Assembly: GCA_029260055.1 (NCBI GenBank)
Contig: JAJDDX010000387.1
Coordinates: forward strand, 1 to 45,062
Source of the DNA: Phycisphaerae bacterium
GTDB lineage: Bacteria; Planctomycetota; Phycisphaerae; UBA1845
Direction: 5' to 3'
Length of the DNA stretch: 45,062 nucleotides
Shown: one piece after another, positions 5,118 through 40,531 of the stretch
Layout of the letters: every line of letters begins with the position of its first letter
How positions within the stretch are numbered: the first letter of the stretch is position 1
The notes under the pieces: generated by a model
The model's input: the letters and a program-made list of their open reading frames with translations, nothing else
The model's database searches: none
Told to the model about the DNA's origin: nothing
Translations under genes and position numbers: made by a program

Positions 5118-5125
5118 TCCGTGAC

Positions 5126-14020: not shown

Positions 14021-14049
14021 AAAGTGGCCCCTCCTACTGTCCGATAAAC
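14021..14049 (+). promoter_or_regulatory. Sigma-28-like promoter P1, upstream of the first polysaccharide gene
   Basis: CCGATAAAC at 14041-14049 matches the sigma-28 -10 element (GCCGATAA, first base T here). AAAG at 14021-14024 lies 16 bases before CCG, the distance of the known -35 element (TAAA). It would give a leader of about 110 bases before the glycosyltransferase start at 14164. Confidence 0.6.
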
Positions 14050-14163
14050 GTGGTGCGCTACCACCGCGCCGAGACCCGGCTGTCGTGCAGCCTGGGTGGG
14101 GTGCGTCTGCCCCGCGGTGTGGCTGAGACGCGAATGCCGCGCGCGGCAGTAGGGAGGCCGAGT

Positions 14164-15288
14164 ATGGGTCCGAACAGGGACGAGGGCATCATGACGACGA
14201 CCGAACTCGACGTGGACCATCCCGCGTTGGTGTCCGGCGCGGCCCCACATGCGCATTCCGGCGTCCGGCGGTCACCGAGCGGTCTGCGCCTTCTCGTGGC
14301 ACTACCGGCCCTGAACGAAGTCGCCACGATCGCTGAGGTGATTCGTGCGATTCCGCGAGACATTCCAGGAGTCGGTCGTGTCGACGTGGTCGTCATCAAC
14401 GACGGCAGCACGGATCAGACGATGGAGCGTGCGATGGCGGCCGGGGCGGCGGTCATCAATCATCCCGTGTCTCGCGGTGTCGGGGCGGCTTTTCAAACGG
14501 CGTTGACGTACGGCATCGATCACGGCGCCGACCTCATCGTGAGCATCGACTCGGACGGCCAGTTCGACCCTGCCGACATCCCGAAGCTCGTCGAGCCGGT
14601 TCTCGCCGGTGACGCAGACTTTGCCACCGCGTCGAGGTTCAAGGACCCGGCGCTGATGCCCCAGATGCCGTGGATCAAACGGTGGGGCAATGGCGCCATG
14701 AGCAAACTGATCTCGCGGCTGACCGGCCACACGTGGCACGATGTGTCCTGCGGCTTCCGCTGCTACAACCGTCGAGCCGCGCTGAACCTGCACCTTCTCG
14801 GGCGGTTCACCTATACGCAAGAAGTGTTCATGAACCTGGCGTTCAAGGACCTTACGATCGTCGAGGTGCCAATACGCGTGCGGGGCGTCCGCGAGCACGG
14901 CAAGAGCCGCGTGGCGAACAACGTGCTCACGTACGCCTTGAAGACATCGCGCATCATCTTTCGCTGCTACCGCGACTACCACCCCCTCCGTCTGTTCGGA
15001 GCCGCGTCGGCGGTGCTACTGCTGCTGTCCGGGGCGGCTGGGACCTTCTTGATGTGGCACTACGTCACGACCGGTGGGTTCTCCCCGCACAAGTGGGCGG
15101 GCTTTGCGGCTGCCGCGCTGTTGGCGGTGGGCTTGATGACGGCGCACATGGGTATGGTCGGCGACATGCTGAACCGCCACCGGGTCTACCTCGAAGAACT
15201 TCTCTTCTATCGCAGATTGGACGGCAACGGAACGGGGCGCATCGTGTCGCAGCAGTCACAGCCGGTGGCAGGCGACTTTAAGGACTAG
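14164..15288 (+). CDS. Family 2 glycosyltransferase with C-terminal membrane anchor
   Basis: Inverting GT-A glycosyltransferase of 374 residues, close to the polyprenyl-phosphate hexose/mannose synthases. Seen: L-L-V-A-L-P-A-L-N-E near the start, V-V-I-N-D-G-S-T-D-Q-T, the metal-binding S-I-D-S-D-G-Q-F-D-P and S-C-G-F-R-C-Y-N. Two hydrophobic segments near residues 282-302 and 315-340 are predicted to span the membrane, as in GtrB-like enzymes. ATG at 14164 follows AGGGAGG by 6 bases; ATG at 14191 also has a ribosome site, so the first nine residues are uncertain. First gene after promoter-like site P1 and likely head of the polysaccharide cluster. Confidence 0.88.
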   Translation: MGPNRDEGIMTTTELDVDHPALVSGAAPHAHSGVRRSPSGLRLLVALPALNEVATIAEVIRAIPRDIPGVGRVDVVVINDGSTDQTMERAMAAGAAVINHPVSRGVGAAFQTALTYGIDHGADLIVSIDSDGQFDPADIPKLVEPVLAGDADFATASRFKDPALMPQMPWIKRWGNGAMSKLISRLTGHTWHDVSCGFRCYNRRAALNLHLLGRFTYTQEVFMNLAFKDLTIVEVPIRVRGVREHGKSRVANNVLTYALKTSRIIFRCYRDYHPLRLFGAASAVLLLLSGAAGTFLMWHYVTTGGFSPHKWAGFAAAALLAVGLMTAHMGMVGDMLNRHRVYLEELLFYRRLDGNGTGRIVSQQSQPVAGDFKD

Positions 15289-15312
15289 GGCTCGACAACA
15301 CACGATCCACGG

Positions 15313-16404
15313 ATGGAAAACGTGAACGTTCTGATCGACCTGGGACATCCCGCTCATCTCCACTTCTTCCGCCACGCGGCTCAGCGGCTGACGGCGGAAG
15401 GGCACACCGTGCGCTTTACGGGGCGAGACAAGGACATTCTGGTCGAGCTGGCTCGTGGGTTCGGAATCGAGGTCGAGGTCTTCGGCGTCTGCAAACGAGG
15501 CACGGTTCACATGGCCGGGGAGCTGGCGTATCGCCAGTGGCGGCTTGCGGGGATCGTCCGTCGTTTCAAGCCCGATGTGATGCTCGGGATCGCGGGCACC
15601 TATATCAGCGCGGTGGGTCGGCTTTTCGGCGTGCCGACGTACATCTTCTACGATACGGAGCACGCCACGCTCTCGAACATGCTCGCCTATCCGTTTGCGA
15701 CCTGTACGTTCGTGCCGCAGTGCTACCATAAGCCGATCAGGTGGCGCAACCGGCGCTACAACGGCTACCACGAGCTTGCTTACCTGCACCCGAAGTACTT
15801 TCAGGCGGACCCTGCGGTGCTCGACGAAGTCGGACTCGGTCCGAGCGAGCGCTTCAGCATCGTCCGATTCGTCGGGTGGGGGGCTGTTCATGATGTGGGT
15901 CTGTCCGGTCTTACGGACGAGAACAAGACTCGAGCCATCGACGAACTGTGCCGGTTCGGACGTGTGTTCATTTCGAGCGAGGGCCCGCTGCCGGCAAGCC
16001 TGGAAGAACACCGCCTTCGGCTTGATGTCACGCGAATCCATCACCTGATGGCACACGCCGACTTGGTCTTCGGCGAAAGCGCTACGATGGCGTCGGAAGC
16101 GGCGGTGCTCGGCGTACCGTCCGTCTACATCGATCCGGTCGGTCGAGGTTACACGGACGAGCAGGAGCGCGAGTACGGGCTCGTGGCCAACTTCACCGCA
16201 AAGCGCCAGGCAGAGGCGATTGATCGAGCGGTTGCGGTGCTGGCCGCGAATGACCGTGCCGTCTGGAAGGAAGCAGGCAGGAAGCTGATCGATGACAAGA
16301 TCGACGTGACGGGTTTGGTTTGCCGCGTCGCGACGGAGCGACCGTACGTCAAACCGGTGACTGAGCCGGACACCGTACCGTACTTCGGACGGGCAGGAGC
16401 ATAG
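15313..16404 (+). CDS. DUF354-family GT-B-fold protein
   Basis: 363 residues. The start N-V-L-I-D-L-G-H-P-A-H-L-H-F-F-R-H and the segments R-R-F-K-P-D-V-M-L-G-I-A-G-T-Y and D-T-E-H-A-T-L-S-N are typical of DUF354 proteins, which resemble UDP-GlcNAc 2-epimerase and glycosyltransferases of the GT-B fold and occur in archaeal and bacterial polysaccharide clusters. The C-terminal half keeps a sugar-nucleotide-type loop (F-G-E-S-A-T-M-A-S-E-A-A-V-L-G-V-P). No strong ribosome site is seen; the gene begins 24 bp after the glycosyltransferase stop. The exact reaction is not known. Confidence 0.83.
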   Translation: MENVNVLIDLGHPAHLHFFRHAAQRLTAEGHTVRFTGRDKDILVELARGFGIEVEVFGVCKRGTVHMAGELAYRQWRLAGIVRRFKPDVMLGIAGTYISAVGRLFGVPTYIFYDTEHATLSNMLAYPFATCTFVPQCYHKPIRWRNRRYNGYHELAYLHPKYFQADPAVLDEVGLGPSERFSIVRFVGWGAVHDVGLSGLTDENKTRAIDELCRFGRVFISSEGPLPASLEEHRLRLDVTRIHHLMAHADLVFGESATMASEAAVLGVPSVYIDPVGRGYTDEQEREYGLVANFTAKRQAEAIDRAVAVLAANDRAVWKEAGRKLIDDKIDVTGLVCRVATERPYVKPVTEPDTVPYFGRAGA

Positions 16405-16419
16405 GGAGGCTTTTCGACT

Positions 16420-18369
16420 TTGTGCGGGATCTGCGGGACATTGGGATTCGGGTCGGCTGAGTTGGTTCGCCGCATGGCGAACCGGATCGCTCACCGTGGC
16501 CCGGACGGCGAAGGCTATCTCACCGATGAGCCCCACGGTGTCTACATGGCCAACCGGCGTTTGGCCGTGCTGGACCCGGATGCGCCCGATCAACCGTTCT
16601 GGAACGATTCGCGTCAGATCGGCGTGGTCTACAACGGGGAGATCTACAACGAACCCGACTTGCGTGCCGAGTTGCAGCAGCACGGACGGCGCTATCACAC
16701 CGACACCGACACCGAGACGATCCCTCACCTCTTCGAGCGAGATGGCATAGGCGCGTTCGGCAAGCTCAACGGCATGTTTGCGTTCGCGATCTGGGACGCG
16801 CGCAAGGGCGAAGCGTGGCTCGTGCGTGATCCGATCGGAATCAAGCCGCTCTTCGTCTGGGATGGTCCGCGGGGGTTGGCTTTCGCGTCGGAGATTAAGT
16901 GTTTTCTGGAGATTCCGGACTTCCGCGCGACGCTTGACCGACGCGCGATGCACCAGTTGTTGAATGTCCGTTTCGTACCGGGAGAGCAGACGCTCTTCTC
17001 GGGCGTCCGCAAGCTTTCGCCGGGGCATTGGCTCAAATGGAGCGCGTCCGGCGGCTGCACGACGAAGCGATACTGGGAATTGCCCGAACCCGAAGGCGAC
17101 ATGACCGACACCGAAGCGGCCGACGGCTTCTACGATCGGTTCGAGCAAGCCGTCGAGAGGCAGTTACGGTCCGACGTGCCGCTCGGCGTCTACCTGTCGG
17201 GCGGAATCGATTCCAGTTTGCTCGTGGCGGCGTTGGCGCGTCGCGGCGTCCGTCCGACCACGTTCTGTCTCGGGTTCGGCGAACCGACCGACGAGCTACA
17301 CGACGCCAGGCGCGTGGCACAGTATTTCGAGACGGACCATCACGAAGAGACGATCGCACCGAACTGTCTTGATGAGTACGCTCGCGCCGTCTACCACCTC
17401 GAAGAGCCGAAGGTCAACGGCCTGCAAGGCTTCCAACTCGCGCGCGCTGCCCGGCGGCGGTTTACCGTGGCATTATCCGGGCTGGGCGGGGATGAGCTGC
17501 TGTGTGGATACAACGTCCATACCTACCTGCGCAAGATCGCGTGGCTGAATCGCGTGATGGAAGGCAGCGGTCTTTCTAGCGTTACGGCGAACGCGGCCGG
17601 TAAGCTGCTCGACTTCACCGGCGGGCTCGGCGGCTTCCGTGCGGACAACCTGAAGCGGATCGTCGAGTGGGGGGCATCCGCCGGCGATCCGACGCGGCTT
17701 TATGCCGTGCTACGTAACGGCTGGGATTTCAACGAGCGCATCGGACGCTGGCTATACCGTGCGGACGTGTGGCGCGACCTGAAGAACACCACCCGCGCGA
17801 GTTTCGACCCGCATATGACCGGTTCGTCGGATTTGACGGAGCGGACTCTCCGTTGCGAATTGCAGGTCAAAATGGTCGACGACTTCCTGGCCAACAGCGA
17901 CAGGATGTCCATGGCCGTGGGGTTGGAGGAACGCGTGCCGTTCCTCGATCTCGACGTGGTGGAGTTCATGGCCCGGGTCCCCGCGCGTGTCAAGTTTGGC
18001 GGCGGCATCTTGAAGCGACTCGTGAAGGAGCCTCGCGACGGGTGGCTGCCGGCCTCCGTGCTCGATAAGCGCAAGTGGGGTTTCACGTTTGATTCGGTTC
18101 AGCAGGCCAAGAAGGACCTCTTGACGGTCGCGCGGCGCGAGCTGACACGCGAAGCCGTCGGTCGGCTCGGCGTGTTTAGATACGAGGCGGTCGCGGCGCT
18201 GCTCAATGCGAAGCCGCACCGATCGCTTCGATGGCACTTCTTCCTGTTGTGGATGATCCTCGGTCTTCATTACTGGCATCGAGCGTTCGTGGAAGGTTCC
18301 ATGCCCGAAGAAACGGAATGCAGGCAGCAACGCGTGAACAATCGAAGTTCCGTCCCGGCCATATGCTGA
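16420..18369 (+). CDS. asnB: Asparagine synthetase-like glutamine amidotransferase
   Basis: Glutamine-hydrolysing amide-forming enzyme of 649 residues, about the usual length. The start is TTG, placed so that Cys2 (M-C-G-I-C-G) becomes the N-terminal nucleophile after Met removal; GGGAGG lies about 10 bases before. The glutaminase domain (1-210) has R-H/A-H-R-G-P-D-G and Y-N-G-E-I-Y-N. The synthetase domain carries the PP-loop S-G-G-I-D-S-S at 260-266, then G-L-G-G-D-E-L-L. In polysaccharide clusters such enzymes often amidate a sugar acid rather than make asparagine; I infer that role from context. The 3' end overlaps the next gene by 7 bases. Confidence 0.9.
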   Translation: MCGICGTLGFGSAELVRRMANRIAHRGPDGEGYLTDEPHGVYMANRRLAVLDPDAPDQPFWNDSRQIGVVYNGEIYNEPDLRAELQQHGRRYHTDTDTETIPHLFERDGIGAFGKLNGMFAFAIWDARKGEAWLVRDPIGIKPLFVWDGPRGLAFASEIKCFLEIPDFRATLDRRAMHQLLNVRFVPGEQTLFSGVRKLSPGHWLKWSASGGCTTKRYWELPEPEGDMTDTEAADGFYDRFEQAVERQLRSDVPLGVYLSGGIDSSLLVAALARRGVRPTTFCLGFGEPTDELHDARRVAQYFETDHHEETIAPNCLDEYARAVYHLEEPKVNGLQGFQLARAARRRFTVALSGLGGDELLCGYNVHTYLRKIAWLNRVMEGSGLSSVTANAAGKLLDFTGGLGGFRADNLKRIVEWGASAGDPTRLYAVLRNGWDFNERIGRWLYRADVWRDLKNTTRASFDPHMTGSSDLTERTLRCELQVKMVDDFLANSDRMSMAVGLEERVPFLDLDVVEFMARVPARVKFGGGILKRLVKEPRDGWLPASVLDKRKWGFTFDSVQQAKKDLLTVARRELTREAVGRLGVFRYEAVAALLNAKPHRSLRWHFFLLWMILGLHYWHRAFVEGSMPEETECRQQRVNNRSSVPAIC

Positions 18370-19616
18370 CGACGGCGTGCTCGACCACCGAGATCGACCG
18401 ATACCTGGTCGGCGCGCTGGAGCATGCGCGGAAGTCGGACTACGCCGGCTGGAGCAAGCACGATGCGCTAAACAGCCCGCTGCTATCGGCCCTATCGCTC
18501 GGGCTGCGCGTGCCGAGGCTATGCCTGATTCAAGGCATCATGCGGTCTCCCGTCGATCTGCGCGGCATGCTCGGCGTGCGTCGTACCCGCAACAGCAAGG
18601 GGATCGCCCTGTTCGCGCGGGCGTTGATGGATCGTGGTCAGGCCCTTGGATCGAAGGAGAATCTCGCCGAGGCGGGGCGGCTCCTGGATTGGCTTGTAGA
18701 ACATCCAGCCGACTTTCCCGTCGGCATGGGCTGGGGCTATCCCTATCCATGGCAGGACGTGGGCTTCTACGCTCCACGGGGCCTTCCGAACCGGGTCGTG
18801 ACCAGCTTCGTCGCGCAGGCTCTGATGCAGGGCTACGAAGTGCTGGGAGACTCGCGTTACCTGGACGCAGCCGGCGAGGCGGTTCGGTTCCTCCTCGACG
18901 CGCCGGGTCGTATTCTGGAGACGCCGCACCAGTTGTGCCTGGCCTATGTACCGAGCGACAAGGTCACGTGGGTGGTGATGGATGTGAGCATCCTGGCGGC
19001 CGCCGTGGTGGCTCGACATGCCGCGCTTTCTGGCGATGGCAGTCGGCTGACCGAGGCGAGGCGACTTGTCGCCTACGTTGTTGACAAGCAGACAGACTAC
19101 CACGCGTGGTACTATGCTCATCCGCCGCGCGACGCGCGCATCACACACGATAACTACCACACGGGCTTCATCCTCGATGCGCTTCACGACTACGTGCGTT
19201 ACACGGGCGAGTTTCGATGGGCGGATGCTTATCGAAACGGGCTGAAGTTCTACCGCGATCGACTATTCGACGCGGACGGTGCCCCGCGGTGGATGCACGA
19301 CAAGCCTATCCCACGGGACATACACGGCAGCGCGCAGGGCGTTCTGACGTTTCTGCGGGCGGCTGGTGATACTGAGTTGGGTGATGAGAGCTATCGAGTA
19401 GACGCCCACCGTGCGGCACGCTGGGCGATTGAAAACCTGTGGCTCGACGATCTCGGGCGATTCGCGTGGCAACGCACGCCCCGTGGATTACGCAAGCACG
19501 ATCTGTTGCGCTGGTGTCAGGGCTGGATGGCAAGGGCGCTCGCGGGGCTGTTGAAGTCCGAAACGGATCGAGTGCGTAGCGAGAAACGCGTCGCGCGGGA
19601 GCCGGCGCCGGTTTGA
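18363..19616 (+). CDS. Predicted (alpha/alpha)6-barrel carbohydrate-active protein
   Basis: 417 residues from ATG 18363, overlapping the asnB stop; an in-frame ATG at 18318 is an alternative. Helix-hairpin pattern with repeated aromatic motifs: G-M-G-W-G-Y-P-Y-P-W-Q-D, H-A-W-Y-Y-A-H-P, H-D-N-Y-H-T-G-F-I-L-D-A-L and R-D-I-H-G-S-A-Q-G. These resemble six-hairpin glycosidase/epimerase-type barrels. No secretion signal, so it probably acts in the cytosol on a lipid-linked or nucleotide sugar, or as an unsaturated-uronyl-type hydrolase. The substrate cannot be named from sequence. Neighbours place it in the polysaccharide pathway. Confidence 0.72.
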   Translation: MLTTACSTTEIDRYLVGALEHARKSDYAGWSKHDALNSPLLSALSLGLRVPRLCLIQGIMRSPVDLRGMLGVRRTRNSKGIALFARALMDRGQALGSKENLAEAGRLLDWLVEHPADFPVGMGWGYPYPWQDVGFYAPRGLPNRVVTSFVAQALMQGYEVLGDSRYLDAAGEAVRFLLDAPGRILETPHQLCLAYVPSDKVTWVVMDVSILAAAVVARHAALSGDGSRLTEARRLVAYVVDKQTDYHAWYYAHPPRDARITHDNYHTGFILDALHDYVRYTGEFRWADAYRNGLKFYRDRLFDADGAPRWMHDKPIPRDIHGSAQGVLTFLRAAGDTELGDESYRVDAHRAARWAIENLWLDDLGRFAWQRTPRGLRKHDLLRWCQGWMARALAGLLKSETDRVRSEKRVAREPAPV

Positions 19617-19628
19617 GAGGGGCTGACG

Positions 19629-20450
19629 ATGTTCATCGGTAAGGAACTGGTATACGACGGTTCGCTGGGCATGGCGGAGCGTTTCTACATTGCGCTTTTC
19701 GGCGTGCCGATCAACGGGCTCCGCAATCGCGCGAGGCGCATCCTGCCTTACATCACCGATCGCTACAAGAGCGTGCTCGACGCCGGGTGCGGGCAGGGCA
19801 TCATGACCTTCGAGATCGCTCGCCATCTGAAGGGTGGCAGCATCACCGGCTTCGACATCGATGAAACGTTGCTCGAAAGGAACGAACGCATAGCGGGCCG
19901 CATCGGCGCGGACCGATGCCGCTTCGAGTTCCAGGATATCACGCGGATGGACATCGAGGATCGCTTCGATCTGATCCTGAGCGTCGACAACCTGGAGCAC
20001 ATCGAGAACGACAAGGATCTGCTTCGCCGTTTTCATCGCGCGCTGACGGACGATGGAGAAGTGCTGATCCACGTGCCGGGCTACTTCCGTCGCTGGAAAC
20101 TCTTCGGATGGGCCGTCAACTTCGATGTCGACGGGCACGTGCGGCCCGGATACACGCGCGACCAGATCACCGAGAAAGTATGCGACGCGGGGTTCGAGAT
20201 CATCGAGGCCTACTACACGTACGGATGGCTCGAAACCGTCACGAACAACATCTCCTACTGGATCACCGGTGCGAGAATGAAACGCAAGGCGCTGTACGCG
20301 GCCGCGTTTCCCATCCTGCTGTTTGCATCCTACTTCGGGCGCAAGAGCAGGCCATCGAAGGGAGCCGGTGTGTTGGTGAGAGCACGGAAGACGCGAGGTG
20401 GGATTGCGGAAGGCGGCCGCGGCGAGGCCAAGCAGGGAGGCGACCAATGA
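19629..20450 (+). CDS. Class I SAM-dependent methyltransferase
   Basis: 273 residues. Motif I V-L-D-A-G-C-G-Q-G (about 49-57), the acidic end of strand 2 in G-F-D-I-D, then F-Q-D-I-T and F-D-L-I-L-S-V-D-N-L-E-H-I form a standard SAM-binding fold. GAGAGGGG lies before the ATG. The C-terminus (about 225-245) has a hydrophobic segment. The stop overlaps the next start (ATGA). Likely methylates a sugar or lipid carrier intermediate; the acceptor is unknown. Confidence 0.87.
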   Translation: MFIGKELVYDGSLGMAERFYIALFGVPINGLRNRARRILPYITDRYKSVLDAGCGQGIMTFEIARHLKGGSITGFDIDETLLERNERIAGRIGADRCRFEFQDITRMDIEDRFDLILSVDNLEHIENDKDLLRRFHRALTDDGEVLIHVPGYFRRWKLFGWAVNFDVDGHVRPGYTRDQITEKVCDAGFEIIEAYYTYGWLETVTNNISYWITGARMKRKALYAAAFPILLFASYFGRKSRPSKGAGVLVRARKTRGGIAEGGRGEAKQGGDQ

Positions 20451-22687
20451 AACAGGTTTTAAGACGTGTGATCGACCGGAAGGGTGTCGTTCGGGTGGTC
20501 GATCTTCCCACACCGCACATGGGCCCGGATCAGGTGCTCATCAGCACCCACTACACATCCATCAGCTCCGGGACCGAGCTTGCCACCGTTGGCAAGACGC
20601 CGACCGAGATGGTCAAGCAGACGCTTCAGGATCCGTGGATGCGCAACGCGGTCAAGAATCTCGTGCTCGGTGGCCCGCTGCGGCAGACGGCTGACACGAT
20701 CTACAACGAGTTGACTCTCGATCGGTTGATCGGGTACGCCGGGTCGGGCGTCGTGCTCGATGCGGGCGCGAACATTCGTCACGTGGCGGTGGGGGACCGA
20801 GTGGCTTTCGCCGCCCAAGGCCACGCCGAGCAGGTGTCGGCCTGCGCGAACCACGTCGTTGCCGTACCGGACAACGTCGACATGAAACACGCCGCGTTTG
20901 CCACCGTCGGCGGCATCGCGATGCAGGGCGTTCGGCGGGCTGAAGCCGGAATCGGCGACTGGGTCGTCGTCTACGGTCTCGGTTTGGTCGGCCAATTGAC
21001 ATGCCAGATCCTCCAGGCATCCGGGGCGAAGGTGATCGGCATCGATCTGAGCCGCGAGCGCTGCGACTTGGCACGCTCGGCAGGCGTGAGCCACACGATC
21101 GACGCGGCTAGCGAGGATGTCGTAGAGGCAGTCACGCGTCTGACCGGCGGAAAGGGCGCCGACGTCACGATGATCTGCGCCTTCTCCAAGAAGCCCGAAA
21201 TAGCCAACAACGCCATGAAGATGACGCGCATGCAGGGCCGGGTGGTGTTCGTGGGTCTGGTCAAGATGGATCTGGAGCGCAAGCCATTCTTCCTGAAGGA
21301 ACTCGATCTGGTCTTCTCGCGCGCGTACGGGCCCGGCAGCTACGACAACGGCTATGAAAAGGGGCGGTACGACTATCCCTACCATTACGTGCGCTGGACG
21401 GAGCAGCGGAACCTTCAAGAAGTACTGCGACTGGTCAGCGAAAACCGGATCGACATCGAGCCGCTCATCGACGGCGTCTTCCCGATGGAGAAGGCGCAGG
21501 GGGCATTCGATAAGCTCTGTGATGGCGAGACGAAATCCGTCGCCATGGTGCTCGCATACCCGCAGCGCACCGTGGTCGACACGAAGGTCGAGGTTCGCAC
21601 CAAGCCAAGACGCGTCGGCAAGGACGCGATCCGCATCGGTGTGATCGGCACCGGGAACTTCACACGGAACTACCACGTGCCACTGCTCGCAAGGAACAAG
21701 CGGTTTTCGATCCGGGCATTGAGTTCCGCTACCGGGATCAACGCAGCCGGCGTGGCGGAGCGCTTCGGCGCGGACTACATGACCTCCGACTACCGTGAAG
21801 TGCTCAACGATCCGAAGATCGACTGCGTACTGATCGCCACGCGCCATGATCTGCACGCGCCGATCGCCATCGAAGCGGCACACGCGGGCAAACACGTCTT
21901 CCTCGAGAAGCCGGTGGCTCTGGCCATGGCGGACTGGCAGTCGGTCAAGTCGGTCGTCAGCGAGTCGGGCGTAAGGCTGATGGTCGGTTACAACCGTCGG
22001 TATTCCAAGCTCGCGACGATCGCGCGGCGGCACGTCACGACGGGGCCCGTGATGGTCCGTTACATGGTCAACATTCAGCCGCTTCCCGATTCGCACTGGA
22101 CCCTCGACCCGATCGAGGGTGGCGGGCGACTGCTGGGTGAGGCGGACCACTTCGTAGACATGATGAACCTGTTCGCGAACTCCACGCCGACCGGCGTCAC
22201 GGCGGTGTCGTTGCCGTCGACTCAGGAGGACAACCAGGGGCTGTTCAATTTCAGCCTTCAGGTGCAGTACCGAAACGGCGCCATCGGGCAGCTCATGTAC
22301 ACCAGCCTCGGCGGACCGAAGTGCCCAAGGGAGCGTATCGAGGTCTTCGGCGGTGGACGCCACATCGAGTTGGTCGACTACAAGAGCCTACTCATCGACG
22401 GGCGCGTGGCTGCGAAGAAACGCGACCTCGGCCACGCTGCTGAGCTTGACGTGTTTGCGGATCGGCTGATGGCGGCGGGCGACGATGACCACGACTTGCA
22501 GCTTACCGACACGCTGGCCGCGTCGTGGGTGTGTCTGACCGCCAACGAGCAGCTATCGGCTCACACGATGCCCAGGTCCGCGGTGATGCCGGCGTCGGTT
22601 CGAGCTTCCGCCGAACCGTGCGGAATCGACGCCGACGAACCGGTGACCGTTCTCGGCAGGGAAACTCCGGGAGAGGTCGGCGTCTAG
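20447..22687 (+). CDS. Bi-domain oxidoreductase (Zn-type dehydrogenase plus Gfo/Idh/MocA)
   Basis: 746-residue fusion. Residues about 1-365 are a medium-chain dehydrogenase-like domain (G-Y-A-G-S-G-V-V, V-G-D-R-V-A-F, nucleotide loop V-V-Y-G-L-G-L-V-G-Q). Residues about 370-715 are a Gfo/Idh/MocA domain with I-G-V-I-G-T-G-N-F and the catalytic V-F-L-E-K-P-V-A-L. ATG 20447 sits in the methyltransferase stop (ATGA), with GGGAGG 8 bases ahead. Such fusions recur in polysaccharide clusters next to amidotransferases and are thought to oxidise or reduce a nucleotide sugar at two positions. The C-terminal 30 residues look disordered. Confidence 0.9.
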   Translation: MKQVLRRVIDRKGVVRVVDLPTPHMGPDQVLISTHYTSISSGTELATVGKTPTEMVKQTLQDPWMRNAVKNLVLGGPLRQTADTIYNELTLDRLIGYAGSGVVLDAGANIRHVAVGDRVAFAAQGHAEQVSACANHVVAVPDNVDMKHAAFATVGGIAMQGVRRAEAGIGDWVVVYGLGLVGQLTCQILQASGAKVIGIDLSRERCDLARSAGVSHTIDAASEDVVEAVTRLTGGKGADVTMICAFSKKPEIANNAMKMTRMQGRVVFVGLVKMDLERKPFFLKELDLVFSRAYGPGSYDNGYEKGRYDYPYHYVRWTEQRNLQEVLRLVSENRIDIEPLIDGVFPMEKAQGAFDKLCDGETKSVAMVLAYPQRTVVDTKVEVRTKPRRVGKDAIRIGVIGTGNFTRNYHVPLLARNKRFSIRALSSATGINAAGVAERFGADYMTSDYREVLNDPKIDCVLIATRHDLHAPIAIEAAHAGKHVFLEKPVALAMADWQSVKSVVSESGVRLMVGYNRRYSKLATIARRHVTTGPVMVRYMVNIQPLPDSHWTLDPIEGGGRLLGEADHFVDMMNLFANSTPTGVTAVSLPSTQEDNQGLFNFSLQVQYRNGAIGQLMYTSLGGPKCPRERIEVFGGGRHIELVDYKSLLIDGRVAAKKRDLGHAAELDVFADRLMAAGDDDHDLQLTDTLAASWVCLTANEQLSAHTMPRSAVMPASVRASAEPCGIDADEPVTVLGRETPGEVGV

Positions 22688-22986
22688 GCGCGACGGCATC
22701 CGACTACGCTCGTACCCGTGAAGACCGCCGCTGCACTCTGTTTGTGCTCGTCGACTTACTTGTCCCCGAGTCGTTCGGCCCCACGCGCCCACACTCCACC
22801 TCGTGCCAAGCTCGTCTGCTCGTCCGTGAGCCCTCGCAAGTCGTGTGAGAACGCATCGGATCGGGCCGGCTCGAGTCCACTCTCGGCGATGACCTGACGG
22901 CCACCGGCGCAGCGTCACCGTCGTAGCTCGGCGGTTCAAGTTGCCGGCGCCGAGGCGGTGCCATCACGTTGCACCTACTTCAAAGA

Positions 22987-23029
22987 CGTGGTGTGCCGGC
23001 ACCCTGTCGAATGCGAGGGTAAACCCGTA
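22987..23029 (+). repeat. Structured direct repeat, copy 1
   Basis: 43-base element shared with 23063-23105, period 76. It opens with a 14-base mini-hairpin (GGTGT, 4-base loop, GCACC with a U-G closing pair) and contains the palindrome GGGTAAACCC, then CGTAGCTCAAAA. Confidence 0.6.
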
Positions 23030-23062
23030 GCTCAAAAGCGAGAGGTGCAGGTAAGTGTGAGG

Positions 23063-23105
23063 CGCGGTGTGCCAACACCATGCCGGATGCGAGGGTATAC
23101 CCGTG
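23063..23105 (+). repeat. Structured direct repeat, copy 2
   Basis: Second copy, about 80 percent identical. The mini-hairpin reads GGTGT, loop GCCA, ACACC with a full U-A pair, and the palindrome is GGGTATACCC, then CGTGACCCAAAA. Pairing is kept despite base changes. A remnant of its tail, ACCCGTGACTCAAAAC, recurs at 30475-30490. Confidence 0.6.
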
Positions 23106-33435: not shown

Positions 33436-34218
33436 CTAGCTCCGCCCGGCGACCTGCAGCCGCCCGGCTTCAGTCGCTTCGGTGGGAGACAGTGGACCCG
33501 CCGGCACGGCGACGTCACCTGCGGGCAAGTTGGCGTCTCGAACGACCCGCGGCTGCGAGTCTCGCCATAGACCGCGGTAGATCCGCAGGGCCTCGATTAG
33601 CATGCCGCTGTTGAAGGAGGAATTGGTCAACAGGTACTCGATAGGCATTTCCGTGATCCTCCCGCCGGCTTGCCACGCGCGGTGCAGCAGTTCGAGCTGG
33701 AAGGCAAACCCTCTGGCCCGCACGCTCACGAAGTCCATGCCTGCCAGCGTGTCCGTGCGCCAGCAGCGGAAGCCGCTCGATGCATCTCGTACGTTGATCC
33801 CCAGTCGCCGCATGAGAAACGCCGCTCCCAGGCTGATGAACGTGCGCGGCCCCTTCACGCTCTTCGTGAGGAAGCGCGATCCGATCACGAGGTCACTGTT
33901 CGTCTCCTGGGCCTGTACCACCAAGCGGCCTACGTCCGCGGGCTTGTGGGTCAAGCCTGCATCCATCTGGACAATGTAGGTCGATCGGCGCGCAAAGGCG
34001 GTCCTGAAGCCGTCCAGGTACGCCGTGGCGATACCGAGCTTGCCGGCCCGGGTGACGACCTCGACGTTGTAATAGTCGCGGGCGATCTCACCCGTACCGT
34101 CCGGTGACGAGTCGTCGACCAGGACGATGCGATAGTCCTTCATCTGATCGAGGAGCTGCTCGATGGTCTCCGCCTCGTTGTATGTGGCGAGCACTACCGT
34201 AACGTCGTCGCTGTTCAT
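33436..34218 (-). CDS. Family 2 glycosyltransferase (DPM1-like polyprenyl-phosphate sugar synthase)
   Basis: 260 residues. It transfers a sugar from a nucleotide donor to a lipid phosphate. Seen: V-V-L-A-T-Y-N-E-A-E-T-I, V-L-V-D-D-S-S-P-D-G-T-G, and M-D-A-G-L-T-H-K-P-A-D where DPM1 has D-A-D-L-x-H-x-P. S-S-G-F-R-C-W and M-P-I-E-Y complete the family pattern. There is no C-terminal membrane domain. GGAGG lies 7 bases before ATG. Likely supplies lipid-linked sugars to the two GT-C type enzymes upstream in the same set. Confidence 0.88.
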   Translation of the reverse strand: MNSDDVTVVLATYNEAETIEQLLDQMKDYRIVLVDDSSPDGTGEIARDYYNVEVVTRAGKLGIATAYLDGFRTAFARRSTYIVQMDAGLTHKPADVGRLVVQAQETNSDLVIGSRFLTKSVKGPRTFISLGAAFLMRRLGINVRDASSGFRCWRTDTLAGMDFVSVRARGFAFQLELLHRAWQAGGRITEMPIEYLLTNSSFNSGMLIEALRIYRGLWRDSQPRVVRDANLPAGDVAVPAGPLSPTEATEAGRLQVAGRS

Positions 34219-34284
34219 CGGGAATCCTCCGCGTGGTTTTCAGGCCGCGAGTGCTTCCTGGTCTTGTGTATGAAAACGTTGTGC

Positions 34285-35286
34285 CTATGCATCCTGGACC
34301 CTCCATCCCACCATCTGGGCGACGGTGAGGTTGGTCGGCCGCTGCATGACATGGACGAAGATCGGCGTCAGGCCGAACGTGATCAGTATGTGAATGACTC
34401 GAACGAGCCCCGCGCCGATCACGCCGGCGGAAAAGTCGAAACCGGTGACGAAGAAGAGGTACGCGATCAGTGCCTCCTGCAAGCCGAGGTTGTTCGGCGT
34501 GATCGTGAAGAAGTTCATCATCGACGTGAAGACGCCGATCACCAGGGCCGAACGAAACGCGAGTGAGAACCCCAGCACCGAGAAGGCCACCCGATAGCAC
34601 ACGGCCGCCACCAGAAACTGAGCGAGCAGCAGCAAGCACACTTGGAGGAGTCCGAAGCGCCGCGAGCGAATGATGGCGAAGCCCTCGAGGGCCGTTCGGA
34701 TGAGACGGGCGATCCGCCCGGTCCGACGTGCCAACGAGGGTGCCCGAACCACGAACGGCACGATCGCTGCCAGCACGAACGCGACGCAGGTGGCGGTAAG
34801 GATCGGTGGGGTGGTGACCCCGTACGCGGCCTGTCCGGCAAGTGCCGCGAGCCCCACGAGGCCGGTCATCAGTGAGAGCAAACACGCATTCGCCGCCAAC
34901 ACTGACGCAAAGTGTACATACGCCAGCCCTTTGGTTCGCTTGAGATACACGGCTTTGAGCGCCGCACCGGGACGGGCGGGGCCCAGGTAATTGCCGAAGT
35001 TGGTCAGCAGCGAGAGGCCGAACGCCTCCACCGCCGAAATGCGTACGTCCACGAGCGACACGAGGACCGCGAAGGTCGAGGCGGAGAGCACGAACGACAG
35101 CAGAATACACGCGCAGAGGGCGATCAGATCGGTGGCACCAACCTCGGTCAGCAGCGTCAGCTCCGCCCGATGGCTGTAGACGTACGCCGTCGAGATCGCG
35201 ATGACGATGAGCGTCACGCACACGCGGAGGTACTGCTTGGCCTTTGCCGAGCGTGCGGTGTTTCTGCCTTGGGCCCCGCTATCCAT
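34285..35286 (-). CDS. UPF0104 / lysylphosphatidylglycerol synthase-TM-like membrane protein
   Basis: 333 residues with about 8-9 hydrophobic segments. The signature G-N-Y-L-G-P-A-R-P-G-A-A-L-K-A-V-Y-L-K and T-P-N-N-L-G-L-Q-E-A-L-I-A are typical of this integral membrane family (AglD/MprF flippase-like). GAGG lies about 8 bases before the ATG. Family members are linked to lipid-linked sugar or lipid transfer. It is 66 bp from the DPM1-like gene and probably works with it. Confidence 0.87.
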   Translation of the reverse strand: MDSGAQGRNTARSAKAKQYLRVCVTLIVIAISTAYVYSHRAELTLLTEVGATDLIALCACILLSFVLSASTFAVLVSLVDVRISAVEAFGLSLLTNFGNYLGPARPGAALKAVYLKRTKGLAYVHFASVLAANACLLSLMTGLVGLAALAGQAAYGVTTPPILTATCVAFVLAAIVPFVVRAPSLARRTGRIARLIRTALEGFAIIRSRRFGLLQVCLLLLAQFLVAAVCYRVAFSVLGFSLAFRSALVIGVFTSMMNFFTITPNNLGLQEALIAYLFFVTGFDFSAGVIGAGLVRVIHILITFGLTPIFVHVMQRPTNLTVAQMVGWRVQDA

Positions 35287-35335
35287 TCACCGTGCCTCTT
35301 ATGGTCAAAGCCGTTCTCCCTCTGTCCCGGTAAAC

Positions 35336-37459
35336 TCAGTCTCGCTGAGCCGCGTCCGTGGCGGCGACCTGGAGGCCGCTCGGGTCAACGCGGACCCATG
35401 TTTCAACCTGCCGGCGAGCCTTGCGAAGTTCGAATCCCGACGAGACGAGCGCGCGCCGAACCTCGTCGAAGTGCGTCGCGTCGGTGCTCACGCAGACCGC
35501 GTCCACTTGGTAGTCATCGAGTCCTTCGCGGAAGCGGTTCGCGATCGGGCCGATTCGATCTTGGCGATAGACGGCATGCAGATCATGCGAACTTGTCACT
35601 ACGTCGTGCATGAATCGCCGGGAGTCCAGGTCCTCGCTGCCGCGCGTCGCCAACAGTGGCTGGAAGTAGTGGTCGCAGCGGGCGAGTAATGGGTAGACCT
35701 GATCGTGGATCGTCGGCAGCCACAGCGACACGAGCCACGGTGCTACGACGTACGAATTCGGCGGGGCGCTGTCGTGGAGGTCAGTGGCCCATTTGTAGTA
35801 GGCACCCCAACGGACTTTCGCATGCGGTGTGGCGAGCAGGTTGCCGTTCTCGCGACTGAGCGTGCTTTGGCGTGGCACGAGCAACGCGAACAATACGACG
35901 GCGATCGACGTGATGACGCGCGCGGGCACCCGTGCCCTTTGGGCTGGTTGCAGTTGAAGCGGGGCGATCAGCGCAAGCCCCAGGAGGATCGGAATCGGCA
36001 GAGCCCACATGATCCGCCAGAAGGTCGATCCGACGATGTGCCGCGCCACGTCCGTTTCGAGGAAGGGATTCATCAAGGCGACCAGCGCGATGAGCGGCAC
36101 GACGATCGCGAAACGGCGGGCGGGACCCGTGCGATAGAGCGTCCACGTCAGGAGCACGGCGGCGAGCGCGCATATGGCGAGCGGCCCGTCACCGAGCACC
36201 TTCGTCAGCGCCACCGACAGACCCATACCCGGCTCGCTCAGAGCGGCAGTAGGCGGAACGAACGCTGCCATCTCGCCCTTGAATGCCAGACCCAAGATCA
36301 CGACATATGCGGACGACAGCGCGGCAATTCCGACGCGCTGCACGGTTTGCCGATCGAGTCGGATGGCGCTCGCCACGCCCAGTATTGCCGCGACGGGCGC
36401 CGCCCATATCGCCGACGAAGTGCAACCGACCGAAGCGATCTGGACCGCTGCCAACATGAGCCAGCATTTCGCCGTCGGTGCGCGACCGAACGACATGCCG
36501 TAGGCGTAAGCGAGTGGCATGAAGACGCTCAGGAAGATCGACTTGCCACACCACATCCGCACGAACGCGTAGTTGCCGTACCACCGATACACATCGCCGG
36601 CTGCCACGAGCACGATCAGGACGGCCGCGACTGCCCAAAGCCAATGCCGCGGCGTAAGGAGACGGAAGAGCCTGGCGAGGCCCAGAGGCACGAGCAACGC
36701 CGCTGCGCCGGCACTGATCCAATGGAAGCAGTAGATCGCGGGTATCCCGGTCAGATAGCTGACGGCTCCGTTGAATACTTCGTAGGAGTGGACCCGGTAG
36801 AGCGGAAGATAGATCGCGAGGCCGGCCACGCCGTGCAACGTGTCGTGGGCGAGGATCGGGCGGTCGGGATGGTCGGCGGCTGCGACCGCCACGTTCACGT
36901 AGAACGAATCATCCCAGTCCTGCCGGTGACAGATGAGCGTGAGTACCACGCAGCCAAAGGCAAGAGCCCAAAGGGCTAGCTCGCGCCGCCTTCCGCGGAC
37001 CGGTGGCTCCATCGGCGCCGCCTGTCGCGACTGCGTCAGTAAGGCGATTGCGCCGAGGGCCAGTGCCGCCACAGCGCCGACCCAAAGAGCGATGGCGTCG
37101 CGGCTGATGGCGTAAACAACTAGCGTGCAAACGCCCACGACGATGCCCGCCAGCCGCAGGCGGCTCGACGCCGCTAGTGAAATCGGGGCGGAGGCATGTT
37201 CGGGGGCCGCGGACAGGCCCTGCTTGTCCGTGGCCTCTCGGTGCGAGCGTCGAGCGCGCCAGACGATCGCCATCGCGCCCAGCGCCACGACTCCGGTGAT
37301 CCCGAGCAGGTGGTGCAAGGAGCCACCCAGCGCCACCACGAGATGACAACAGAGCGTCCAGAGCGCAGCCGCCACGCAGACGACATCGCAGATGCGATCG
37401 CTCAGGGGTCGCCTGTTTGCCGTCCGGGGCAGTGTCATGGCCGATCGGGTTCCATCCAC
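35336..37459 (-). CDS. Large polytopic membrane protein, GT-C-like
   Basis: 707 residues with about 12-14 predicted membrane segments and a hydrophilic C-terminal part (about 560-707). After segment four comes H-R-Q-D-W-D-D-S-F-Y-V-N, an Asp-Asp motif in the first outer loop as in GT-C enzymes that use lipid-linked sugars. GTG at 37459 is tentative; ATG eight codons later is possible, and neither has a strong ribosome site. It starts 5 bp after the preceding GT-C gene, so the two are surely co-transcribed. No exact family is recognised. Confidence 0.75.
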   Translation of the reverse strand: MDGTRSAMTLPRTANRRPLSDRICDVVCVAAALWTLCCHLVVALGGSLHHLLGITGVVALGAMAIVWRARRSHREATDKQGLSAAPEHASAPISLAASSRLRLAGIVVGVCTLVVYAISRDAIALWVGAVAALALGAIALLTQSRQAAPMEPPVRGRRRELALWALAFGCVVLTLICHRQDWDDSFYVNVAVAAADHPDRPILAHDTLHGVAGLAIYLPLYRVHSYEVFNGAVSYLTGIPAIYCFHWISAGAAALLVPLGLARLFRLLTPRHWLWAVAAVLIVLVAAGDVYRWYGNYAFVRMWCGKSIFLSVFMPLAYAYGMSFGRAPTAKCWLMLAAVQIASVGCTSSAIWAAPVAAILGVASAIRLDRQTVQRVGIAALSSAYVVILGLAFKGEMAAFVPPTAALSEPGMGLSVALTKVLGDGPLAICALAAVLLTWTLYRTGPARRFAIVVPLIALVALMNPFLETDVARHIVGSTFWRIMWALPIPILLGLALIAPLQLQPAQRARVPARVITSIAVVLFALLVPRQSTLSRENGNLLATPHAKVRWGAYYKWATDLHDSAPPNSYVVAPWLVSLWLPTIHDQVYPLLARCDHYFQPLLATRGSEDLDSRRFMHDVVTSSHDLHAVYRQDRIGPIANRFREGLDDYQVDAVCVSTDATHFDEVRRALVSSGFELRKARRQVETWVRVDPSGLQVAATDAAQRD

Positions 37460-37464
37460 GCCGG

Positions 37465-39054
37465 TTATGGTTTCGTAAGCGCTACGGCGAGCTTGTTGGT
37501 GCTTCGCCTCACCTGCATTTCGATCACCGTGCCGTCATCAAGTCGAACGGTTTTGTACTCGTACTGCGCCGCGAATCGCGGGTCGTTCACCAAGTCGTAT
37601 AGAGCGTTGCCCCAGCGCCGCTGGATGCTCTCCGGCTTCTCATAGACCGGCTCCTTGTATCGCCCCGAAGAGTGGTAGAGGACGATGTCCGGCGCGGTCT
37701 CGAGAATGTAGTCCGTGTGGTATCGAGCATGCCCCGGAGCCGCCTTCGGATACACTTCGCCCTCACAAGCGACGGTGCGGTCCGTCAGCCCGAGCATGTC
37801 CACCGTGCGTCGATCACTGAAGTAACCGACCGCTCCGGGAACGATCGTGGCGACGACGGTGTCGGGCGGGGTGTGATCCCCGATCCATCTGCCCACCTTG
37901 CCCCAGGCTTTGGTCAACGGCATGCCGCCAAGGTGGCCCGGCGCGCCGACGCGATAAGTCATCACGTTCGACGCCGTGAATGCAACGGCGACCATGGCAA
38001 GCGCCAGGCGGGCATTGGGCCGCGATATGCCGGCTCGGACCGTCACCCATGCCAGACCGAACAGCAGGAACAGCGCGGGGAGCACGGGCATGAGGAATCG
38101 AAAGAGCGTCAGGTGGTCTCCGCCGACGTGAAGCACGTACGCAATCCACAGCATGACCCAACCGCCGAGGAACAACACCGGCAAACCGGTGAGCAGCCGC
38201 TTCTTCCAGCCGACGGCAAGCAGCACGAGCAACGAAACGACGAGCGGCCAATTGGCACCGAGAGCCGGAAGGATGTACGCCACGCCGTTGGAAAGCCGCG
38301 TCGCCACCCCGAAGGTCATCTTTGCGTGATAGGTATTGGGTAGCCACGCGCCGAAGTAAGCGTAGCGAATCAGGAACATGCAACCGACCGCGCCGACATA
38401 GCCTACCATGACGCGGACCGAGCGCTTCTCGTACACGAAGTACCCGGCGACATACAGAGCCACGAGTACGCCTTCCGGACGTGTCAGCGTGGCGAGAAGC
38501 AGAAGCATGGCTGTGCGAACGGAGAGGGCAGTGCGATGACGGTCGGACATCGCCGATACGAGGCACGCGCCGGTAAGCAACGTAAACAGCATTACGTCCA
38601 TGCCGGACGCGGACCACAGCGCGAGTGCCGGACCGCCTGCCAAGCCCAAGCCGAGTACGACGGCGTCGCCGCGGCTGAGCGACCCGGTTTGCCGGCGAAG
38701 CGCCGTGAGTAGAAGCACGACCACACCGCCGCCGCAGGCCAGGCTCAGGACCTCGACCAGAGTCTCGAGATCAGAACACAGCGGAGCGAGCCCTGCCAAC
38801 AGGAACGTCCACAGCGGTGACGTGAATCCCTCAACGCGTTCACCGAGGTTGAACACGGCTCCGTTACCCTCGGCGATGTTTCGCGCGTAACGCAGAAAGA
38901 TGTACGTGTCGTCCGTCAGGTAGCCACCGAGCGCGCGCGCCATGACCAGCAGCAGCAGTACTGACGCAGCCGCGATCAGGACGAAGCCGCGTCGTCCGAG
39001 CCGCACATGGCTGATTTCGGGCGTACCGAGAGCGTCGGGAGTCGACGAGTTCAA
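37465..39054 (-). CDS. GT-C family membrane glycosyltransferase
   Basis: 529 residues from a TTG at 39054, chosen because GGAAGGAG stands 7 bases ahead; GTG 39078 is possible but would leave almost no leader behind promoter P4. First loop G-G-Y-L-T-D-D-T-Y-I-F-L-R-Y-A-R-N-I-A-E, then G-x-V-F-N-L-G-E-R-V-E-G-F-T-S-P-L-W, typical of lipid-linked-sugar GT-C enzymes such as AftB-like proteins. About 11 membrane segments and a soluble C-terminal domain (about 385-529). Transfers sugar on the outer face of the membrane. Head of the minus-strand operon 39054 to 33436. Confidence 0.85.
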   Translation of the reverse strand: MNSSTPDALGTPEISHVRLGRRGFVLIAAASVLLLLVMARALGGYLTDDTYIFLRYARNIAEGNGAVFNLGERVEGFTSPLWTFLLAGLAPLCSDLETLVEVLSLACGGGVVVLLLTALRRQTGSLSRGDAVVLGLGLAGGPALALWSASGMDVMLFTLLTGACLVSAMSDRHRTALSVRTAMLLLLATLTRPEGVLVALYVAGYFVYEKRSVRVMVGYVGAVGCMFLIRYAYFGAWLPNTYHAKMTFGVATRLSNGVAYILPALGANWPLVVSLLVLLAVGWKKRLLTGLPVLFLGGWVMLWIAYVLHVGGDHLTLFRFLMPVLPALFLLFGLAWVTVRAGISRPNARLALAMVAVAFTASNVMTYRVGAPGHLGGMPLTKAWGKVGRWIGDHTPPDTVVATIVPGAVGYFSDRRTVDMLGLTDRTVACEGEVYPKAAPGHARYHTDYILETAPDIVLYHSSGRYKEPVYEKPESIQRRWGNALYDLVNDPRFAAQYEYKTVRLDDGTVIEMQVRRSTNKLAVALTKP

Positions 39055-39061
39055 GTCCGTA

Positions 39062-39069
39062 CTCCTTCC
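39062..39069 (-). promoter_or_regulatory. Ribosome binding site that decides the GT-C start
   Basis: GGAAGGAG on the minus strand, 7 bases before TTG at 39054. It is the strongest site in the neighbourhood and supports an unusual TTG start. Confidence 0.7.
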
Positions 39070-39093
39070 GGTAAACACACAGTCTCCGCGACG

Positions 39094-39126
39094 GTTTATC
39101 GGAACCTGAGGCGCGCGGGTTGATTA
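39094..39126 (-). promoter_or_regulatory. Sigma-28-like promoter P4, head of the minus-strand operon
   Basis: CCGATAAAC on the minus strand (39102-39094) with TAAT at 39126-39123, 20 bases apart. The -10 match is exact, the -35 is weak. It predicts a leader of about 35 bases before TTG 39054. Confidence 0.55.
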
Positions 39127-39186
39127 ACGCTACCTCGTTTTCGGGGATATTGGGCCAAAAACGGGGATTCGAGCCGACGGTTTGGC

Positions 39187-40419
39187 TCAGTTCGTGTTGG
39201 GCGAGTCCTGGTGGCCGTCGGCGGGGCCGTGCCGGGTTACCACTTCGTCATGGACGGGGCCGGTGCCGTTCGACTCGAGATGGTTGATCAAAGCCGCGGA
39301 AACGACCTCTGCGATACGCGTCGTGCCGTTCGGCGTGGGGTGGATGTGGTCGTAGAAGCTGTCCGGCTCGCCGGACAGGGGGGTCACGTCGATGATTCGG
39401 TCGGACGGCACTTCCTCGTCGATCACACCGTAGATGGACGCGAATGCGTCGAGGTGTGCATCATGGTCGAAGCCATGGAAATGGTAGGCACATCGCTCGC
39501 GCTGCTCGTCCGGAAGATCGGGGACGATCAACGTAGCCTGCTTGCAGACGAACATCTCCACACCGAGCGCGTCTGCGGTGGTCCGCAGCAGCCGAAGGTT
39601 CTGGCGGAACGTCTCCAAGCCGCGCCGTTCGAACGAGTCAGCCAGCGGAGTGGCCTTGCCGGTTCCTACTTCACCGGTCGAGGCGGACAGGCGGATGCGC
39701 AGATCGCTCAGCACTTGTGACGGCCGCACCAGGTGGTCGACCCAACTGGGTTCATAGACCTGAGCCGGCTGTGCGGTTCTGTCGAGCGTCCATGATCCGT
39801 CGGGCAGCGTCCGCCATGTTGTCGTGGGACGTCCGAAGTAGTACATCTCGTTCCAGCCGTGGTAGACGACGACGACGTCCGGATCGTAGAACCGCAGGCG
39901 GCTCCAGAAGCGTCCGTACGACTCGAATGTGCTGTAGCCGCCGACAGCGGCGTTGATGAACTCGATCTTGTCGGTGTCGAAGTGGATGCGGAGCGTTTCC
40001 GCCACTCTCCAGGGCCACGTGTGCTTATCGCGGAGGTTCCATCCGGTGCCGGCTGTCGATGAGCCTCCCAGGAAGACAACTCGCGTGGTACCGGGCGGCT
40101 TGGCGACGGCAATCTCGGGCGTCGATATGAAGCCCTCACTGTTGACGGTCTTCTTCTCTTGGTTGTCGTACTGCCCCGGCCGAGGCCGGTATGCGCAGAA
40201 CGCGTCCACATCGGCCCAACTCCTCATCGGGTTGGGGCTCGACGCTACGCTGCGACCCGTTAGTGCCCACAGGTCGATCGGCTCGCGGGCGACCCGGTAA
40301 TACAACTCGGTCGCGGTGAACGCTGTCACGAGAACGAGCGTGATGGCCAGGAGCGCGAACAGGCGTCGCTTACGATGCGAGACGCGGCGCTTCGCCGTGT
40401 CGGTAGTGGACGTGTTCAT
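39187..40419 (-). CDS. Membrane-anchored SGNH/GDSL-type hydrolase
   Basis: 410 residues. One N-terminal membrane segment (about 20-38) puts the catalytic domain outside. Block I F-L-G-G-S-S-T (Ser120), block II N-A-A-V-G-G-Y-S-T, block III Y-H-G-W-N-E-M-Y and block V Y-D-H-I-H-P-T give Ser, Gly, Asn and Asp/His of the SGNH fold. Likely removes or adds acyl groups on the surface polysaccharide. No ribosome site is clear before ATG 40419. Preceded by its own CCGATAAA site, so it is transcribed independently of the kinase genes. Confidence 0.87.
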   Translation of the reverse strand: MNTSTTDTAKRRVSHRKRRLFALLAITLVLVTAFTATELYYRVAREPIDLWALTGRSVASSPNPMRSWADVDAFCAYRPRPGQYDNQEKKTVNSEGFISTPEIAVAKPPGTTRVVFLGGSSTAGTGWNLRDKHTWPWRVAETLRIHFDTDKIEFINAAVGGYSTFESYGRFWSRLRFYDPDVVVVYHGWNEMYYFGRPTTTWRTLPDGSWTLDRTAQPAQVYEPSWVDHLVRPSQVLSDLRIRLSASTGEVGTGKATPLADSFERRGLETFRQNLRLLRTTADALGVEMFVCKQATLIVPDLPDEQRERCAYHFHGFDHDAHLDAFASIYGVIDEEVPSDRIIDVTPLSGEPDSFYDHIHPTPNGTTRIAEVVSAALINHLESNGTGPVHDEVVTRHGPADGHQDSPNTN

Positions 40420-40501
40420 ATCGGCGTACTCGACCGGGCGTTCGGCGTCGGCGCGACGATCCGACCGTCGCAGTTTCGCGCGGATTGTGCCGGGTCCACC
40501 G

Positions 40502-40531
40502 ATTTATCGGTCGGTGATCACGGCGGTCTTA
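40502..40531 (-). promoter_or_regulatory. Sigma-28-like promoter P5, upstream of the SGNH hydrolase
   Basis: CCGATAAAT on the minus strand (40510-40502) with TAAG at 40531-40528, 17 bases apart. Good match to the sigma-28 form; leader of about 75 bases to ATG 40419. Confidence 0.6.

Follow-up and report, generated by a model that had tools for sequence, protein, structure and literature searches.

Introduction

The stretch of DNA analysed here as a whole, which is 45,062 nt long and is called the window below, raises the question of what the 8-mer CCGATAAA is doing in front of surface-polysaccharide genes. In the original prediction, the word was read as the −10 core of sigma-28 promoters, and it was supposed that a flagellar-type sigma factor had been recruited for surface polysaccharide. 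According to the present analysis, the sites probably serve as −10 elements in promoters of the sigma-28 class with the layout (T)CAAGCC-N14/15-CCGATAA, which would be read by a sigma factor of the FliA/WhiG family and head surface-glycan genes.

Sites and Genes of the Window

Exactly five copies of CCGATAAA are found in the window (14041+, 23164+, 30395+, 39102− and 40510−), in agreement with the predicted positions, and when genes are called by our own codon-usage method, each of the five is intergenic, lies on the same strand as the next gene and is 24–176 bp from its start (Table 1). When the window was shuffled 100 times with its dinucleotides preserved, the word appeared 0.53 times on average and twice at most. 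The genome to which the window belongs (G000, 500 contigs) contains 135 copies in 7.63 Mb, against 62 of the reversed control word; at this density 0.8 copies are expected per window-sized stretch, and the probability of at least five is 0.0014. Five copies in one window are unusual, though not unique.

Table 1. Features of the window, with positions counted from its first letter
Feature	Position	Strand	Elements	Relation or evidence
FliA/WhiG-family sigma factor, divergent paralogue	5069..5908	+		NCBIfam, solved-structure matches
Sigma-28-type promoter candidate	14021..14048	+	AAAGTG (14021-14026), spacer, CCGATAAA (14041-14048)	123 bp before gene 14164-15288
AglJ-like glycosyltransferase gene	14164-15288	+		Pfam GT2, NCBIfam AglJ-like
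Surface-polysaccharide gene cluster	14164..30205	+		Domain matches
Promoter candidate	23144..23171	+	TAAGCC (23144-23149), CCGATAAA (23164-23171)	135 bp before radical SAM/SPASM gene 23299-24831
CCGATAAA site	30395..30402	+	CCGATAAA, no −35 box in register	176 bp before unknown gene 30571-31530
GT2, LPG-synthase-type membrane protein, DUF6077 membrane protein, GT-C-like protein, SGNH esterase	33436..40419	−		Two promoter candidates
Promoter candidate	39095..39122	−	(T)CAACCC (39122-39117), N14, CCGATAAA (39102-39095)	24 bp before gene 37465-39078
Promoter candidate	40503..40531	−	TAAGACC (40531-40525), CCGATAAA (40510-40503)	91 bp before SGNH/GDSL esterase gene 39187-40419

CCGATAA(A) is common to all five sites, while the preceding G is not conserved, and a −35-type box stands in register at four of them, 30395 being the one without. 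The best match is 23164, where TAAGCC at −20 gives an exact AAGCC-N14-CCGATAA; the other boxes begin at −21, with GAAAGTG at 14041, TCAACCC at 39102 and TAAGACC at 40510, where AAGACC is one base further out. The A-rich boxes that had been predicted at three sites are indeed present at 23164, 40510 and 14041, and the TCAACCC at 39102 had been overlooked. The two further CCGATAA matches that had been stated, 4561+ and 23226−, are present too; the remark that 4561 heads no gene needs correcting in one detail, as CCGATAAC at this position does lie upstream of the sigma factor gene. It is not convincing as the promoter of that gene, because it is about 500 bp away and has no −35 box.

The forward cluster comprises GT2, DUF354 glycosyltransferase-like, AsnB-like and methyltransferase genes and an ADH/GFO-IDH fusion, together with radical SAM, nucleotidyltransferase, epimerase, GT4 and Wzx-type flippase genes. 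On the reverse strand, the product of gene 37465-39078 has weak similarity to an arabinofuranosyltransferase.

Elsewhere in the window, a GatE-type gene (GatB_N with a marginal GAD match) adjoins a GatD-type gene (asparaginase with GatD_N) at 868-4232, that is to say, an archaeal-type amidotransferase pair is present here in a bacterial genome. A large C25 (gingipain-type) peptidase with propeptide is located at 8042-12283, and the heptad AGCTATC is repeated in tandem at 13019-13061. Runs of AGCTATCA/CAGCCGTCAG, which are related to this heptad, are found on several further contigs (L036, L086), where they lie in gaps, and it is therefore a dispersed simple repeat.

Placement of CCGATAA in the Genome

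For the placement of the word in G000, 100 of the 135 CCGATAAA sites were taken with their surroundings from part of the genome. CCGATAA was counted 30 times in tandem-sense gaps, 46 times in divergent gaps and never in convergent ones, where permuted words of the same composition gave 5.2, 5.1 and 1.4, respectively, and the sigma-70 yardstick TTGAC-N16..19-TA...T gave 21, 20 and 0. Because the tandem-sense and divergent counts exceed those of the permuted words and the convergent count is zero, CCGATAA marks promoter-bearing gaps. The tandem antisense count is likewise above expectation (18 against 4.8), the sigma-70 control having 21 sense and 0 antisense; therefore, not every copy of CCGATAA is a −10 element, and many copies may be noise or may have another role. 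Among the 100 listed CCGATAAA sites 46 are coding, and about half of the sites are either coding or without a −35 box. The original prediction was to fall if the motif proved equally frequent in coding DNA or random in orientation: the enrichment in promoter gaps and the empty convergent class speak for it, and the coding share and the antisense excess speak against it.

The same enrichment is seen in the relative G044, which has 65% G+C and lacks the sigma factor of the window, and in which gene-heading sites number 28 out of 53. In two sampled relatives of about 55% G+C, G004 and G014, CCGATAA is not promoter-enriched; G014 has the most copies of CCGATAAA among the relatives (228), and it was dropped as an informative comparison genome, its sites being mainly coding. 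Other roles for the word were also considered. A 3′-end or terminator signal was ruled out by the lack of sites in convergent gaps, no Rfam family of structured leader RNA was found at the sites, and no fixed position relative to sigma-70 promoters was detected.

Several upstream gaps of G000 (L041, L101, L024, L036, L026 and L140) contain two to three copies of CCGATAA in one direction, three pairs of which are exactly 54 bp apart, an arrangement that a single −10 element does not explain. A dispersed palindromic element, GTGGCATGGGCAAAC...GTTTGCCC, is present in at least six copies in the sampled part of the same genome (L047:6533, L096:2177, L102:5391 and 14852, L127:14273 and L137:16495), and in the sampled gaps of G044 (L227-L246) an element containing AGTGTATCTGAGCGAC and GCAAGCCACAGC is repeated about 20 times.

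The Partner Element and Its Spacing

If the word is a −10 element, a −35 element should accompany it, and TAAA/TAAG had been proposed for this role. At −20, these tetramers show no enrichment genome-wide outside the window, and TAAG-N16-CCGATAA occurs twice in the genome, so TAAA/TAAG was rejected as a general −35 box; the actual partner is (T)CAAGCC in the same register. An unsupervised search upstream of the gene-heading sites returned aggCCG at −19 with a log-likelihood of 55.8, whereas none of 12 controls exceeded 41.8. With at least four of six bases required, this box is present at 40 of 103 gene-heading sites, 1 of 32 antisense sites (p = 3e-5) and 19 of 110 coding sites (p = 4e-4), figures to be read with the fact that the box was derived from gene-heading sites and that some −35 scores were computed on those defining sites. 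By class, its share is 50% for tandem-sense, 32% for divergent, 3% for antisense and 17% for coding sites, and most gene-heading CCGATAA sites have no recognisable −35 box.

A nearly independent test is provided by AAGCC-N10..18-CCGATAA in 51 family genomes, almost wholly outside the two genomes that defined the box. Among the 150 listed matches, N14 was found 41 times and N15 26 times, with 8–19 for other spacings, so that N14/15 accounts for 67 of 150 (p = 9e-10). Among the available loci, 12 of the 14 with N14/15 are gene-heading, whereas 2 of the 12 spaced otherwise are (p = 0.0006), and in the N14/15 loci the box tends to be extended to TCAAGCC. Moreover, the two A's of the CAAGCC box occupy the same positions as in the classical TAAA-N15-GCCGATAA, namely −19 and −18 if counted from the C that opens CCGATAA.

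As regards the features of the sigma-28 class, a −10 element corresponding to GCCGATAA or its core is present at all five window sites, and a position upstream of genes with fixed −35/−10 spacing was also found; in place of TAAA at N15 from GCCGATAA, CAAGCC stands in the same register. The reading of CCGATAAA as a sigma-28 −10 core is upheld by its placement in gaps and by the −35 element at the sigma-28 distance, and the sites are supported as candidate sigma-28-class promoter elements with a variant −35 box.

It could be argued that CCGATAA is instead the operator of a transcription factor situated in promoter regions, since the word is over-represented in tandem gaps in the antisense (18) as well as the sense (30) orientation, two or three like-oriented copies share a single gap in several cases, and many sites have no −35 box. 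We regard this as improbable: a separate box at a fixed N14/15 across 51 genomes, and a distance of 11–19 bp from orthologous gene starts, fit a −10/−35 pair. No partner half-site of the CCGATAA type was found at any offset, by which a dimeric transcription-factor site was ruled out. Still further down the scale is the view that an 8-mer spotted by eye was fitted with boxes post hoc. The lack of TAAG/TAAA enrichment at −20 outside the window is what such a view would expect, but the genome-wide and family-wide statistics stand against it and the conserved promoters of orthologous genes contradict it, so it is very improbable.

Genes behind the Candidate Promoters

The Pfam matches of the next genes include three cytidylyltransferases, two GT4 glycosyltransferases, two polysaccharide deacetylases, an FkbM methyltransferase, a GT9 protein and a PglD-type transferase, and the gene for an ABC-2 exporter, with a Wzt-type ATPase as its neighbour, is also behind such a promoter. 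In a strict count that excludes the ABC-2 exporter, 10 of the 25 genes behind the promoters are glycan genes; in the gene-function control, a small one of 20 randomly drawn genes preceded by a gap, there was one (p = 0.007). The enrichment in surface-glycan genes supports this part of the original prediction. A local search, whose seeds came solely from the window and other genomes, gave glycan genes in 3 of 20 cases against 3 of 408 (p = 0.0016), and in 0 of 32 for CCGATAA sites without a −35 box. Non-glycan genes (Fic, AMP-binding, SpoIIE, PPIase) are likewise located downstream of promoters.

The cytidylyltransferase is similar to CMP-N-acylneuraminate synthetase, and this CMP-nonulosonate synthetase gene opens a run of CTP_transf_3, NeuB and UDP-GlcNAc 2-epimerase. 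Its orthologue was found in 38 of the 51 family genomes. In 6 of 15 relatives tested, belonging to five genera, CAAG-N16/17-CCGATAA is located 11–19 bp upstream of the aligned synthetase start, on the right strand in all six, where 0.0009 coincidences would be expected by chance; the synthetase gene of G000 has the same arrangement (CAAGCAGGGCCCGAATAGTCGCCGATAA). The boxes are conserved between these orthologous sites while the spacers differ, and the predicted promoters of the synthetase gene are the strongest evidence of this report. Orthologous deacetylase genes in G000, G044 and G065 are likewise preceded by such sites. The two-part motif is conserved across the family in its spacing, orientation and position, and it is biased towards glycan genes.

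Sigma Factors as Candidate Readers

For the sigma factor of the window, the best NCBIfam models are WhiG and FliA_WhiG, with residues 46-265 aligned to model positions 1-220 of 224. Its score against TIGR02479 is 154 bits, below the cut-off of 189.6, and it is also below the WhiG cut-off. The solved-structure matches include FliA and WhiG, the best being 6pfv/6pfj, which the search names merely as RNA polymerase sigma factor and which we take to be WhiG. The original prediction was right about the family; because the protein is a divergent paralogue below cut-off, 'FliA' or 'WhiG' is unfit as its name. The true FliA of the genome is encoded on contig C92, where its gene adjoins that of a ParA/MinD-type ATPase, and a second FliA-type sigma factor (176 bits) is encoded on contig C163. 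Almost every one of the 40 relatives searched has sigma factors of these two score classes, and the C163 paralogue is conserved through the order; a few genomes, e.g., G004 and G018, have second or third copies in its score class, and among the matches listed for the 40 relatives only G023 has a comparable third, lower-scoring match. Sequence identity to the window protein is 40% for the C163 protein and 32% for FliA, and in the tree the window protein groups with the C163 paralogue, apart from FliA (100/99; both branches long).

Which of these factors reads the promoters is the point on which the explanations diverge. The main rival takes FliA as the reader, with part of the glycan genes serving flagellin glycosylation. 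In its full form, the sites would belong to an ordinary flagellar FliA regulon in which glycan genes make nonulosonic acids for flagellin and nothing has been recruited. The statement that flagellar genes are lacking is true of the window, but the genome has six flagellin-type genes besides its canonical FliA, and flagellin-type genes were found in 23 of 24 family genomes searched. In other bacteria, CMP-nonulosonate synthetase and NeuB genes typically take part in flagellin glycosylation (e.g., PMC4065374). Conserved residues in the regions that recognise the −10 and −35 elements are common to all three sigma factors, which also suits this rival. On the other hand, when 21 flagellin upstream regions were searched for CAAG/CCGATAA at 9 or more of 10 letters, 2 had the motif against 0.8 expected; there is no clear enrichment, which argues weakly against FliA as the main reader. 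The promoters of G000 precede a Wzm/Wzt-type exporter and adjoin a Wzx-type cluster, both being surface-polysaccharide systems, and G004, which is flagellated, lacks a close orthologue of the synthetase. An ordinary FliA regulon is rated as rather unlikely.

A second rival is a local autonomous regulon, in which the sigma factor encoded in the window would be dedicated to reading the five sites. The gene does lie in the same window and its family assignment is correct, and promoters are denser in the window than in the genome on average (P = 0.0014). However, the gene is 9 kb from the first site, beside unrelated GatDE and response regulator genes, and no convincing motif site heads it. Because relatives without this paralogue, such as G044, have the same promoters, the window factor need not be the cognate one, and a local regulon of this kind is unlikely. 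To judge from the sequences, the promoters are family-wide and not a window-local system. The notion of a flagellar-type sigma factor for surface polysaccharide thus survives in the promoter class and in the glycan bias across genera, and not as a peculiarity of the window.

To return to the preferred reading, we infer that transcription starts at these promoters and that the bacterium reads them with a sigma factor of the FliA/WhiG family, most likely a member of the non-flagellar FliA-type clade, that is, the C163 paralogue and/or its divergent relative in the window. A FliA-type holoenzyme, probably with the C163-type factor and perhaps with the window factor for the local cluster, would initiate at (T)CAAGCC-N14/15-CCGATAA, with a −35 box that may be reduced to NAAG/NAAC, and would switch on surface-glycan operons. 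The genes so headed would be those for nonulosonic acid synthesis, glycosyltransferases, polysaccharide deacetylase and ABC polysaccharide export, and the flippase-type cluster of the window. With a non-flagellar clade as reader, a flagellar-type sigma factor would have been reused for the cell coat. A more specific form of this proposal, in which the order's dedicated non-flagellar FliA-type factor (C163, with the window copy divergent) runs the glycan coat and its own CAAGCC −35 specificity separates it from the FliA regulon, is put forward tentatively, as possible but short of an even chance.

Comparison with Known Systems and Significance

Compared with FliA promoters, the candidate promoters have an identical −10 core and the same spacing, with the −35 AA at the positions given above, and FliA itself is encoded in the genome. 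They differ in the −35 consensus, which is (T)CAAGCC here and not TAAA(G), and in that the genes examined are glycan rather than flagellar genes, the family flagellins having no clear motif. WhiG is a sigma factor of the flagellar clade with flagellar promoter specificity, which Streptomyces uses for sporulation and Rubrobacter for type IV pili (PMC8325347). The likeness to WhiG lies in a flagellar-type sigma factor and promoter specificity turned to non-flagellar surface functions, and in 6pfv/6pfj as best solved matches of the window factor; the differences are the surface-polysaccharide target, the lineage, and the score of the window factor below both the WhiG and the FliA cut-offs. In Synechocystis, SigF reportedly controls surface structures. 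SigF belongs to the SigB/F/G family and not to FliA. The likeness to cyanobacterial sigma cascades consists in the use of alternative sigma factors for surface structures, as these bacteria employ them for motility and surface structures and, in Nostoc, in the hormogonium cascade (PMC6495340).

What is known is the redirection of flagellar-clade sigma factors, as with WhiG to sporulation and type IV pili; for a FliA-class regulon centred on surface polysaccharide as the main target, no report was found in the open-licence literature. The two-part promoter, which is conserved in front of orthologous glycan genes in different genera, predicts a regulon for bacteria that are largely uncharacterised. 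A swim-or-coat switch in this lineage thereby becomes testable, the objects being a few promoters and the three sigma genes named above. Since sigma-28-type switches stand before surface-sugar genes in the relatives as well, the sequences suggest that a motility-type control protein has been reused to run the cell coat.
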